NCBI GenBank assembly: GCA_015231175.1 | Contig: JADGBZ010000006.1 | Coordinates: 1-64,000 of the forward strand | DNA: 64,000 nucleotides | Direction of reading: 5' to 3' | From: Magnetococcales bacterium | GTDB lineage: Bacteria > Pseudomonadota > Magnetococcia > Magnetococcales > DC0425bin3 | Shown here: one piece after another, positions 60,822-64,000 of the stretch | How positions within the stretch are numbered: position 1 is the first letter of the stretch | Layout of the letters: every line of letters starts with the position of its first letter | The notes under the pieces: generated by a model | The model's input: the letters and a program-made list of their open reading frames with translations, nothing else | Told to the model about the DNA's origin: nothing | Database searches by the model: none | Made by a program: the position numbers and the translations under genes

Positions 60822-61246
60822 GCAGAGTGGCCTGCAATCGGGTTGGTGAAAAAATAAGAATTCTCGGTTTTTTTGCACCGCCCTGCAATAATTTCTTGCA
60901 GGGCGCAAAGTGAAGGAGTAAACTCCAGAGAATTCCGAATTGTGTATGCTGTAAGTCGCCTTTTGTTCCAGGGGTGTTTTTCCCCCTCTTGGATGTCCCT
61001 GTTCTTGCAAACCCGCCCGGAGCGTTCCGTGGCGGGTTTTTTTGTGCCCACTTTGTCATCAACCCGCACCGAAACAAAAAAATTCAGATCACTGTTCAGC
61101 ACCCTTTCAAGTGCATTTTGTCTCCACGGCGGGTTGTTGCATACCGGAAAGGAGGTGCGCACTGGCATGGCGCCGGTCGCAAAAATGAGAGTTGAGAAGC
61201 GTTTAAAAACATATGTTTAAACCGAAAACAAAGGAGTCAGGTCAAG
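60822..61246. other. Spacer with two hairpins between actP and phage-like genes
   Basis: This 425-base spacer contains a perfect 9-bp-stem hairpin (GCCCTGCAA at 60880-60888 and TTGCAGGGC at 60896-60904) without a T tract, a strong terminator (61010-61043) and an inverted repeat GTTTAAA/TTTAAAC just before the next gene. A 20-base match to the dispersed repeat head (CTGTTCAGCACCCTTTCAAG, about 61092) is also present. A small RNA ending at the terminator is possible but unproven. Confidence 0.4.
61010..61043 (+). terminator. Rho-independent terminator
   Basis: ACCCGCC (61011-61017) pairs with GGCGGGT (61031-61037), with an inner CGGA/TCCG stem and GCGT loop. Seven T follow. It is the strongest terminator in the window, and closes actP or a small transcript between actP and the phage-like genes. 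Confidence 0.85.
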
Positions 61247-62209
61247 ATGAGCAACAAAAAACGTGCACTTGTGTCCGTACAACATTCACAAACACAAAAC
61301 CAGACGCAAACGCATCGAGGGTCTGGACAAGGACAGAAGCAAAGTCATAGGCCGGATCCGCAGCTGCAAGGAGAGGAACAGGAACAGGATTTTGGAAAAA
61401 TGGTTGGTGAGTTCCGCGCCAAAAAAAGAAACAAATCCCGGGGAAACAACGTCCCTGATCAAGCCCATGCGTACCACAACCCGAACGATGGGGCAAACAA
61501 CACCCAAGCCGGCACGGCACGTCTTGGAGATGAAACACTCCATAATTGGGACGAGGCATTGGATCATCTGCGGCAGGAATACGTCGACCTGATGCACAAA
61601 TACAACTCCCATATCGGTCGATTGCGCAAACAAAACGACCAACTACTCGCACAAAGCCAAAACCTTCACCCGACCAACCTGTCAGCGCAACCATCCGGCA
61701 ACCATCGTTACCCCTGGGCAGACGCATGGAAACAAATGCAAAAACAAGGGCACTACCGGGATCTGCTGGGTCCGCTGGAATCGCGGCTGCACTATCTGGA
61801 AGAGTGGCTGCAAGCTGTGACCCAGTTTGCCAAATCCCAGCATGAGTGCAACAAACTGGAACGGGAGCACCCTGACTATGGCGATATTGCCAACGATCAG
61901 GATTTTCATGCCTGGTTGGAACGGCAACCTTCTCCCATTCGCGAGGTGGTGGAACGCAATGCCCACTGGATCAACAACAGCGGTGATGTGATCTGGCTGT
62001 TGAAGGAGTACAAGGCCTTCCGGGATGAGGGCAAAACCGCTCAGGACCAAAAAGACAAGCAGTTGCAGGAACGCAGGGCACTTCAGGTCCAGTCCGGGGC
62101 AGCCGTTCCCAGTCGCGGCCCGGGCACCGGCGAGAATCTGCCGGATACCTTTGGCAAACAAGTCGCCTATTTTCGCCAACAACTGCGCACGAAAGGACGT
62201 GCCAAATGA
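61247..62209 (+). CDS. Phage-like protein, possible scaffold or internal virion component
   Basis: The 320-residue protein is not recognised as a named family. It is highly hydrophilic, with a Gln/Asn-rich N-terminal 120 residues and a helical central region (WDEALDHLRQEYVDLMHKYN, RLHYLEEWLQAVTQFAKSQH). The C-terminus is basic (AYFRQQLRTKGRAK). The composition and its coupling (ATGA) to a virion-like gene point to a structural phage role. Scaffold, portal-associated or packaging protein are all possible. Confidence 0.6.
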   Translation: MSNKKRALVSVQHSQTQNQTQTHRGSGQGQKQSHRPDPQLQGEEQEQDFGKMVGEFRAKKRNKSRGNNVPDQAHAYHNPNDGANNTQAGTARLGDETLHNWDEALDHLRQEYVDLMHKYNSHIGRLRKQNDQLLAQSQNLHPTNLSAQPSGNHRYPWADAWKQMQKQGHYRDLLGPLESRLHYLEEWLQAVTQFAKSQHECNKLEREHPDYGDIANDQDFHAWLERQPSPIREVVERNAHWINNSGDVIWLLKEYKAFRDEGKTAQDQKDKQLQERRALQVQSGAAVPSRGPGTGENLPDTFGKQVAYFRQQLRTKGRAK

Positions 62210-63261
62210 CTGAAGCCTATTGGAATCTGCAACCAAACGGGCTGTTCGCAACCCCTGCAACCAACCCGGACGGAGGCCGGGCCACAACCGTCGGAGAACA
62301 TGTGGCTCCCTACCTCTCGCCTGCCAATCCTTGGCTCCAACAGGCGCAAACCAAGGCCAAACAGGCGGCCAACCAACGTGGACTCCTGAACAGCAGTATG
62401 GCCGTTCAGGCAGGAACGGAAGGTTCGCTGCAAACCGCCGCCCAAATGGCCAGCCAAGATGCCCAGGCCACAGCAACCCGGGGTCTGGCAGCACAACAAA
62501 ATCAATACACCCTGGGGCAGAATCGGGAAAAATTTGGGCAACAACTGCAACTGGATTCTGCCCAGACCCAAAATCAGGCCCACCTGGCCAGTCAGCAATT
62601 TCAATTCAACAAAGACCTGTCGCAACAACAGTATGGTCAACAACTGGGGCTGGCGGGTAAACAGCACGAATTCAACAAAGACCTGTCGCAACAACAGTAT
62701 GGCCAACAACTGGGTCTGGCCGGCAAACAACACGAATATGCCCTGGACTTGGGCGAACAACAGTATACCCAGCAATTGGGACTGGCCAGCCAGCAACACG
62801 GCTATGCCCTGGATCTCGGCAACCAGCAGTTCAGCAGCCAGCGGGTGTTGAACGCCGACCAGGCAGCGGCAGCCTTGCAACTGGATAACCAGGGATACAC
62901 ACATCAACTGGGATTGGCCGATGTCAACAACAAGTATGCCCTGCAACAGGGAGAGGAACGGTTTCATCAGCAACAGGCGCTCGATACCCAACAGCAGAAC
63001 ATCACCAGAGAGATCGAACAAACCAAACTCAACTCGGCCTGGCAATCGGATCAAGACAAATTGGCAGCAGATCGTCAGAACAACATGGCCGTTGCCCTGC
63101 GCAACTTTGCCACCGACTGGAACCAGGCCTATGCCCAGATCAACAGCAATACAAACCTGTCCGAAGAGTCACGGAATGCCATGTATACCACCATCAACGA
63201 CATCATGAAACGAAACGTGAATGCCATCAAAGGGATGTATGGCGTCAACCTTTCCTGGTAG
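62206..63261 (+). CDS. Phage virion-like protein with 22-residue Gln-rich repeats
   Basis: The 351-residue protein contains a segment AKQAANQRGLLNSSMAVQAG followed by ASQDAQATATR that resembles podovirus internal or tail proteins. Residues about 134-221 form four 22-residue repeats (FNKDLSQQQYGQQLGLAGKQ and relatives), encoded by 66-bp repeats starting at 62605, 62671, 62737 and 62803. Twenty-two residues equals two hendecads, expected of an extended amphipathic helix or coiled coil. The C-terminus (YTTINDIMKRNVNAIKGMYG) is compact. The ATG overlaps the upstream stop. Confidence 0.7.
   Translation: MTEAYWNLQPNGLFATPATNPDGGRATTVGEHVAPYLSPANPWLQQAQTKAKQAANQRGLLNSSMAVQAGTEGSLQTAAQMASQDAQATATRGLAAQQNQYTLGQNREKFGQQLQLDSAQTQNQAHLASQQFQFNKDLSQQQYGQQLGLAGKQHEFNKDLSQQQYGQQLGLAGKQHEYALDLGEQQYTQQLGLASQQHGYALDLGNQQFSSQRVLNADQAAAALQLDNQGYTHQLGLADVNNKYALQQGEERFHQQQALDTQQQNITREIEQTKLNSAWQSDQDKLAADRQNNMAVALRNFATDWNQAYAQINSNTNLSEESRNAMYTTINDIMKRNVNAIKGMYGVNLSW
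62605..62868 (+). repeat. 66-bp tandem coding repeats
   Basis: Four in-frame units start at 62605, 62671, 62737 and 62803. The first two are nearly identical at nucleotide level and the others are diverged. Further degenerate units may lie before and after. The repeat encodes the 22-residue Gln-rich motif of the phage-like protein. Confidence 0.85.
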
Positions 63262-63274
63262 GAGTGGAGATCAT

Positions 63275-64000
63275 ATGAGCGGTGTATGCAGAGCCATTGG
63301 AAGAGCATTCAAAAGTGTGACAAAAGCCATCACGGGCAGCTCCATTCTCAAATCCGCCCTGGTGGTGGGAGCCGCCTATTTTACTGCCGGAGCAGCTGGC
63401 CTGGCTCTGCCCGGCGCAACCATCGGAGGAAGTGGCGTCTTGTCCGGCATCGCCTCGGCAGGCGCGGGCCTGACCGGGGCAACCGCAACAACAGGGATGT
63501 TTTCCACAGCTGCGGCAGCAGCCAGCAGCGCCATGGGGCCCACAGTTGGATCCATGGTTTCAGGGGCCATATCCGGGGCTGCAACCGGCGCCATGTTTGG
63601 CGGAGGCGTATCGGCCCTGACCCATGGCGACATTGGCCGTGGGATGCTGACAGGCGGCCTGATGGGCGCTGCGGCGGGTGGCGTCCAAGGTTACTTCAAT
63701 GCCGCACCCCCCCCGGGCTCAGTCAACCCCACCGAAGGATCATATGCGTGGTCCCCGGCCTCGAATACATCTCCATCCCAAAACATGGCCACATCCCAGA
63801 ACAGTACAACCTTTGGCTCGTCGGGCACGTCGAATGCGCTGTCCGATGCTTCACAGCCATCTCTCTACGGATCAAGAGTCGCGGACAGCTCTTTGGTCAC
63901 TCCATTGCCGCAGCCCCAATTGCCGCCTGCCTACCAGGATTGGTTCCCACCTAATGGGCTCAAGACAATAGGCATCGGAACATTGGCCAATACGGCTCTC
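63275..64000 (+). CDS. Phage-like glycine/alanine-rich protein, partial (runs off window)
   Basis: The frame is open from the ATG at 63275 to the window end (242 codons). AGGAG lies nine to ten bases upstream. The N-terminus (AIGRAFKSVTKAITGSSILK) is basic and amphipathic. A long Gly/Ala-rich hydrophobic region follows (VVGAAYFTAGAAGLALPGAT, MVSGAISGAATGAMFGGGVS, GRGMLTGGLMGAAAGG) and then a Ser/Pro/Gln-rich part. Such proteins occur in phage tail and internal-virion clusters and may be membrane-active at DNA ejection. The 3' end is outside the window. Confidence 0.65.
   Translation, partial: MSGVCRAIGRAFKSVTKAITGSSILKSALVVGAAYFTAGAAGLALPGATIGGSGVLSGIASAGAGLTGATATTGMFSTAAAAASSAMGPTVGSMVSGAISGAATGAMFGGGVSALTHGDIGRGMLTGGLMGAAAGGVQGYFNAAPPPGSVNPTEGSYAWSPASNTSPSQNMATSQNSTTFGSSGTSNALSDASQPSLYGSRVADSSLVTPLPQPQLPPAYQDWFPPNGLKTIGIGTLANTAL

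Follow-up and report, generated by a model that had tools for sequence, protein, structure and literature searches.

A dispersed, co-regulated set of short-tailed-phage virion genes in a Magnetococcales bacterium and its sister species

The results of this analysis indicate that four genes at the right end of a 64,000-nucleotide stretch of Magnetococcales DNA (the window; positions 1 to 64,000 of contig JADGBZ010000006.1, here C6, 92,630 bases) and just beyond it belong to a chromosomally scattered set of virion genes of the short-tailed-phage type. That such a set is dispersed, co-regulated and vertically kept in two species, the source of the window (genome G000) and a sister species (G002), is well supported. 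It is further considered probable, at roughly 0.68, that the set encodes a domesticated, dispersed, co-regulated short-tailed-phage particle of the gene-transfer-agent kind, with genes at at least three chromosomal sites. The four genes, g1 (scaffold), g2, g3 and g4, form locus A (61247 to 65180), between actP and an ABC transporter. Locus B contains the portal, the major capsid protein, an acetyltransferase and a toxin-type N-terminal domain, and locus C contains lysozyme, holin-like genes, terminase, tail proteins and fibres. Capsid and toxin-domain searches covered 61 genomes, and terminase and tail searches covered seven; contigs and other loci carry C- and L-numbers. Host genes at the flanks (actP, ABC transporter, lipoprotein, response regulator, nagZ-like) were named by eye, actP also by the first-pass annotation, which a model had made from the letters of the window.

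That annotation had described three open reading frames behind actP as phage virion genes, and these were found as placed: g1 (61247..62209, + strand), which encodes a hydrophilic protein of 320 residues and starts 426 bases after the end of actP; g2 (62206..63261, + strand; 351 residues), which overlaps g1 by ATGA; and g3 (63275..64000 in the window, + strand), which encodes a Gly/Ala-rich protein. Reading beyond 64000, as it had advised, gave the end of g3 (64105) and g4 (64119-65180, outside the window) and none of the portal, capsid and terminase genes looked for there. Among the open reading frames of at least 120 residues from 60001 to the end of the 92.6-kb contig, neither these nor an integrase were seen, and the annotation had likewise noted no integrase. 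On the 3' side of g4, ordinary-looking genes follow from 65286 up to the contig end, the first of them convergent ABC-transporter genes (by eye). Of the two origins proposed at first, the late end of a prophage falls, since ordinary genes follow at 65286, and domestication is favoured. The annotation had named ordinary downstream genes together with a lack of phage homologues as speaking against phage origin; the downstream genes are ordinary, yet phage homologues exist and bear out the virion assignment.

A search of the g1 and g2 products against phage profiles, also advised by the annotation, succeeded for g1 only. The g1 product matched phrog_13678 (E 1.9e-11) and phrog_479 (E 1.6e-4) in PHROGs, both families of unknown function, and tblastn (E up to 1) matched 15 phage records weakly (E 6e-4 at best); no close relatives were found in viral contigs. 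The matched phages mostly infect Roseobacter, Pelagibacter and Puniceispirillum and are presumably HMO-2011-like short-tailed phages. In two phages the matched gene is flanked by the portal and capsid genes, and in another by the portal and a 'structural protein'. Because these phage genes occupy the scaffold place between portal and capsid, g1 is, judged by gene position and alignment, a scaffolding-protein homologue. It also aligns with seven proteins in the scaffold position of other loci (17-26% identity). The predicted g1 structure is all-helical at low confidence (mean predicted local distance difference test score, pLDDT, 65), with isolated helices at 45-64 and 301-318. When solved structures were searched with a profile of the scaffold alignment, four chains whose names look engineered matched over about 40 residues (E 0.003 to 0.96). 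The earlier view of the cluster as an ejection or tail module only did not hold, as g1 is a scaffolding-protein homologue and at least two more chromosomal loci belong with the cluster.

The 22-residue repeat noted in g2 corresponds to a 66-bp unit repeated 2-3 times in tandem within 62603-62813 (80-92% matches). The segment RGLLNSSM, called podovirus-like at first, proved conserved, with R-G-L-L-N-S-S invariant when g2 was aligned with three relatives. Homologues of g2 lie downstream of tail genes in contiguous phage loci, which identifies it as a putative virion protein, and homologues of g2, g3 and g4 occur in the same order behind the tail genes on phage contig C42 of genome G004. No match was obtained for g2 and g4 in PHROGs or for g2 in the phage records, and g3 had a single PHROGs match (E 0.03). 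On C14 of G002 (L025), tandem g4 copies, the second of them shorter, are followed by a Tlde1-type toxin, small membrane-like genes and then decayed toxin tails with stops.

The other parts of a virion were found elsewhere in the same genomes. When the capsid protein of G004 was used as the query, four of the 61 genomes matched, including G000 (one place, C45) and G002 (C65). According to open reading frames and profile, C45 contains the portal, the capsid, the acetyltransferase and the start of another gene. The terminase and the tail protein are on C21 and C7 in G000 and on a single contig, C23, in G002; the terminase was matched in three and the tail in five of the seven genomes searched. 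Around these genes lie lysozyme, holin-like genes, TerS, further tail genes and fibres, so that head, tail, packaging and lysis genes are all present (scaffold, portal, capsid, TerS, TerL, tail, fibre and lysozyme). The G+C content of the dispersed genes is host-like (0.552-0.558 vs 0.561-0.573). No replication or integration genes were recognised by eye around the three loci, where contig ends limit the view and no genome-wide search was made. TerS has 106 residues in G000 and 136 in G002 and lacks an N-terminal part seen in four relatives of 193 to 200 residues; that part is helix-turn-helix-like by eye, with no Pfam family named for it. TerL consists of two genes for the ATPase and nuclease halves, overlapping by ATGA, on C21 of G000 (L067:1226-2598) and C23 of G002. 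The split TerL was dropped as a mark of domestication, as TerL is also split in the Halomonas-type loci L121, L122, L124 and L129; some Halomonas-type loci have an extra open reading frame between the two halves.

The two species share the flanks of the loci: actP before locus A, the lipoprotein and response regulator before locus B and the nagZ-like gene after locus C, the other side of which differs. Scanning named genomes with a capsid alignment yielded 11 loci, of which nine lie on contigs of more than 14 kb and two on contigs of less than 5 kb. In all nine long-contig loci, capsid, tail and g2 homologues occur together, with the portal in eight and the terminase in four; portal, capsid, tail and g2 homologues fall within one stretch of about 20 kb in 8 of the 11. 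The loci of G004 and G032 are likewise contiguous. Since relatives elsewhere are contiguous, the scattering in G000 and G002 is best read as a derived state. The gene order also appears reshuffled: the scaffold is in locus A, its usual neighbours portal and capsid are in locus B, and the small gene between them is in locus C.

The virion genes are under purifying selection in both species. The ratio of non-synonymous to synonymous substitution rates (dN/dS) was 0.047-0.346 in 18 of 19 virion-gene comparisons, the remaining one, a holin-like gene, being saturated in dS; the g2 value covers 237 codons, where the G002 contig ends. The dS of virion genes was 0.72-2.32, as against 1.1 and 1.9 in two host genes (a third was saturated), and several virion genes lie below the host genes. 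Protein identities between the species are 93-94% for the capsid, 91% for the N-terminal TerL half (TerL-N), 82% for the portal, 64% for g2, 52% for g4 and 48% for g1, compared with 89%, 75% and 60% for the host genes actP, helicase and lipoprotein. The same loci, the same flanks, low dN/dS and a dS range overlapping that of host genes are the marks of vertical inheritance expected of gene transfer agents, here in two genomes only.

Upstream of g1 lies a box (60896..60924, + strand) made up of TTGCAG (60896-60901), a spacer with GGCGCAAA and TAAACT (60919-60924), matched by an exact genome-wide pattern. Its general form, a T-run, TTG(C/A), a G-run and GC(G/A/T)CAAA, summarised as TTGC-GGGG-GCGCAAA, precedes loci A, B and C in both species. 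The box sits like the -35 element and spacer of a promoter and is thus promoter-like. The exact pattern has 10 sites in G000 and 14 in G002, compared with 1 and 4 for reversed-pattern controls, and 4 of the 10 and 8 of the 14 precede virion loci or toxin genes of the set; the box is special by its placement, not by its count. Eight of these 24 sites had shaped the pattern. The other 16 comprise two sites before toxin genes with the domain NTD2 (described below) that were not known until then (C31 and C49 of G002), a site upstream of a Sel1-repeat gene, a near-duplicate at locus C, a site pointing to a contig end and 11 at which nothing belonging to the set was recognised. The full promoter box at C38:164 of G002 is the one facing a contig end, and a further, unseen member of the set is likely to lie beyond it. 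A relaxed pattern, widened after variants had been seen at C7, C69 and C79, matched in 12 of 17 upstream regions (Sel1, contig-edge and duplicate sites excluded), as against 0.23 expected from its rate in other fetched DNA, a control that itself includes other box sites. It matched once in the window; locus C of G000 was matched by the exact pattern but not by the relaxed one, giving 13 of 17 for both patterns together. In 15 phage or phage-like loci, four box matches were found (L124, L125, L130 and L008).

Between box and gene, 11 of 15 leaders contain an intrinsic terminator by script, as compared with 14 of 600 random segments and none of the 40 regions upstream of open reading frames in the window; the 15 include one near-duplicate, the leaders are 200 to 830 bases long and the controls 330, and the stretch for locus C of G000 ran into the gene. 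The leader of g1 is among the four in which the script found none, and was positive by folding: a hairpin followed by seven T (61010..61043, + strand) has a fold of -22.3 kcal/mol (61006-61045; z -3.75). This hairpin could alternatively be the terminator of actP. A conserved promoter site with an intrinsic terminator downstream is the layout of Q/GafZ-type antitermination, here seen in sequence only, and the shared box and terminator suggest that all loci are under antitermination-type control.

The same box precedes toxin genes. Two sites found with the box in G002 precede proteins that share an N-terminal domain, NTD2, and differ in their ends (GH108 and Ntox44); the genes after these two encode secreted or membrane-like proteins. 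An NTD2 profile matched 2 of the 61 genomes, exactly the two with scattered loci, with six places in G002 (one weak) and five in G000, of which one is at the end of locus B, three form a tandem array on C79 and one is on C101. In the C79 array (L143), which has the box variant GCGCATTTT upstream, the third NTD2 gene is cut by the contig end and the first two are followed by a 302-residue protein. On C101 (L144:9079), a lone NTD2 is in frame with a zinc-binding-protein-like gene (ZnuA, by eye). Other proteins, some of them followed by Sel1-repeat genes, begin with a related domain, NTD1; on C14 of G002, such proteins have Tlde1 ends and come immediately after a g4 copy. Pfam matches for ten toxin proteins gave four recognised ends (Tlde1 twice, GH108 and Ntox44), one weak SLT_2, five without a match and no MuF domain; one Tlde1 match was just below the cut-off for Tlde1 and above that for YkuD. 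Peptidoglycan-acting families account for three of the four recognised ends, which would agree with toxins being delivered to the periplasm. In the phage records, no match was found for NTD2 and one for NTD1 (E 0.7); NTD1 also had one match in PHROGs (E 0.016). A constant N-terminus, exchanged C-terminal domains and adjacent candidate immunity genes are the features of polymorphic toxins, the neighbours being putative immunity genes by position.

A possible link between the toxins and the capsid is a short motif. Several scaffolds of the g1 family have a similar short motif near both ends, FGxxVxxxR in g1, and the best 11-mer was compared with 500 shuffles of the C-terminus. The score was reached by 0 to 7 shuffles for g1 of G000 and the scaffolds of G004, L121, L124, L129, L126 and phage 8P, by 25 and 29 for L122 and L125, by 100 for L128 and by over 350 for HTVC103P and HMO-2011. 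For g1 of G002, 148 shuffles reached it when the N-terminal motif lay outside the stretch used; with the motif included it scores 34 (without shuffles). The g1 form FGK-x-V-xx-(F/Y/W)R is found again in NTD2. Each species has two copies of the FGxxVxxxR-type motif in its g1, and four NTD2 proteins contain it as well; the regular expression, chosen after the sequences had been seen, matched elsewhere only twice in 1.16 million residues (redundant over loci), and one of seven NTD2 proteins (C101) departs from it. In pairwise comparisons of NTD2 with g1, 0 to 186 of 1,000 shuffles reached the score for g1 of G000 and 0 to 555 for g1 of G002, with which about half of the shuffles did so in four of seven pairs; the NTD2 proteins of C101 and C7 score higher with another scaffold. 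Support for a shared motif is thus modest and mixed, and docking of the toxins via a scaffold-like motif is a lead. Engineered P22 capsids are reported to be loaded by cargo fused to the scaffold (PMC9962691), and the docking idea is therefore mechanically sound.

Based on these results, the set would work as described below. A common box in each promoter, mostly followed by a terminator, would make all loci depend on one antitermination-type factor. When this factor acts, capsids and lysis proteins would be made together and particles released. A TerS without its N-terminal part would favour non-specific packaging of host DNA, giving a gene-transfer-agent-like particle, and the polymorphic toxins with the same box would belong to the same programme, the particle being perhaps toxin-loaded. 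Particle production, control by an antiterminator, transfer of host DNA and carriage of toxins are put forward here with falling strength. The whole chain at once, a capsid encoded at scattered loci, switched on by processive antitermination and loaded with toxins via a copy of the scaffold docking motif, which delivers cell-wall toxins and perhaps host DNA to other cells, seems rather unlikely.

Several observations weigh against a domesticated, co-regulated particle. Both assemblies are fragmented, and locus C of G000 spans two contigs joined by analogy with G002. A third genome of the genus (G001, 76% complete) had no match for g1, g2, g4, the capsid, the toxins, the terminase or the tail; it was dropped as an empty site for locus A, as its contig ends at actP, and no actP match was found in G003. 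For g3, no match was found within the stretches fetched from G002, where no genome-wide search was made. The dN/dS values stand against only three host genes, with frames taken from stop to stop and dS unreliable above 1, and g4 was represented by the copy on C14 of G002, whose assignment to the locus is uncertain. The exact box occurs 0 to 7 times in six other genomes, including 5 in G004, 6 in G032 and 7 in G013 (controls 0, 0 and 2), so the number alone is not special. No member of the set was recognised at 6 of the 10 sites in G000 and at 5 of the 14 in G002, besides the one in G002 that faces a contig end, and 4 of the 17 upstream regions are without the box by either pattern (C17, C7:10370 and C101 of G000 and C90 of G002).

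The scattering itself, together with the lack of recognised replication or integration genes and a giant gene of G004 that has no match in G000 or G002, would suit an ancient, decaying prophage that genome rearrangement has split and that persists by chance. Intact frames and low dN/dS in both species speak against decay, as do the same scattering, the same flanks and the same box before loci A, B and C in both, and we regard this explanation as improbable. Still less probable is a phage satellite or anti-phage device whose own scaffold and capsid parts would disturb a helper phage: a scaffold gene apart from the capsid gene brings capsid-remodelling satellites to mind, yet portal, capsid, terminase, tail and lysis genes are present in this genome as well, and only one related capsid gene was found in it. 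A tailocin, that is, a tail without a capsid, does not agree with the capsid gene, which is present and 93-94% identical between the species.

Two further alternatives are sub-readings of the domesticated particle itself, and the odds given here do not sum to one. The capsid may mainly take polymorphic toxins to neighbouring cells: the N-terminal domain would dock in the procapsid through a copy of the terminal helix motif of the scaffold, ejection into the periplasm would involve g2-g4-like proteins, and kin would be protected by secreted or membrane immunity proteins. The confinement of NTD2 to the two scattered-locus genomes of the 61 agrees with this, as do the box upstream of several toxins, the ends Ntox44, GH108 and, with NTD1, Tlde1, the NTD1 Tlde1 gene directly after a g4 copy in G002, NTD2 within locus B of G000 and the motif common to g1 and four NTD2 proteins. 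That motif comes from a post hoc expression with the C101 exception and modest, mixed shuffle support, six of the ten toxin proteins are without a recognised toxin domain (one of them with the weak SLT_2), and the N-terminal domains are without a clear phage homologue, so another export route is possible. This proposal is considered possible, at clearly less than even odds. The same chance is given to a pure gene transfer agent in which the toxins form a separate competition system (e.g. type VI secretion) and share only the stress switch. It would account for dispersed genes with host-like G+C content, a kept terminase and a truncated TerS, and known agents can be both scattered and controlled by antitermination (PMC9662315, PMC11150451, as far as these accounts describe them). 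A toxin gene adjoins a g4 copy, a toxin-type domain lies inside locus B, and toxins and scattered loci co-occur in just two genomes, all of which argue against a separate system.

Intergenic repeats of an interspersed family, in which a segment like GGTCCAGG...GGCGAAGCCCTGAC recurs, were seen by eye in L002, in L067 upstream of locus C and in other G000 loci.

If the domesticated particle is real, it would be a case of virion domestication outside the three independently exapted gene-transfer-agent groups named in PMC9662315, one in which virion genes were reshuffled between loci, and it would join gene transfer agents, antitermination and polymorphic toxins. A promoter box with a leader terminator is a computable signature by which regulons of dispersed phage genes could be found, and through the shared motif the idea of a capsid loaded naturally via its scaffold can be put directly to the test. 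Among the matches listed in the open-licence literature, no dispersed short-tailed agent with toxins was found, which is no proof of absence.

There is a close likeness to known gene transfer agents, as far as the sources cited describe them. RcGTA of Rhodobacter capsulatus has phage-derived genes at five chromosomal loci, kept in the lineage (PMC9662315, PMC7947584, PMC11150451), and its TerS is described as without a specific DNA-binding domain (PMC7947584). The present set likewise has scattered phage-derived genes kept in a lineage and a reduced TerS. CcGTA of Caulobacter has the GafZ antiterminator, with a putative site between -35 and -10 and a terminator after the first gene (PMC11150451); the box embedded in the promoter resembles the GafZ site, whereas the terminator here is in the leader. 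Unlike both agents, the set is of a short-tailed lineage, its portal/capsid, scaffold and terminase/tail genes are separate, each with their own box, and toxins share that box. Phage Q has a site embedded in the late promoter and confers resistance to downstream termination signals (PMC6606751); the box in the promoter with a terminator behind it is alike, but here many dispersed promoters share the box. HMO-2011, HTVC103P, vB_Pun_Y3 and prophage-like loci of Halomonas, Kushneria and Aeromonas have homologous portal, capsid, tail or scaffold genes, which, unlike those here, form one contiguous block. As with the MuF polymorphic toxins (PMC5576092) and the Bxa family of Bacteroides prophage toxins (PMC11699363), polymorphic toxins appear tied to phage genes, and the immunity genes reported for Bxa have candidate counterparts here by position; unlike in those systems, no MuF domain was found among the toxins scanned, and the toxins lie at many separate sites with no recognised prophage. 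In engineered P22, cargo enters via a docking part derived from the scaffold (PMC9962691); that system is man-made, and the resemblance here is a short motif.

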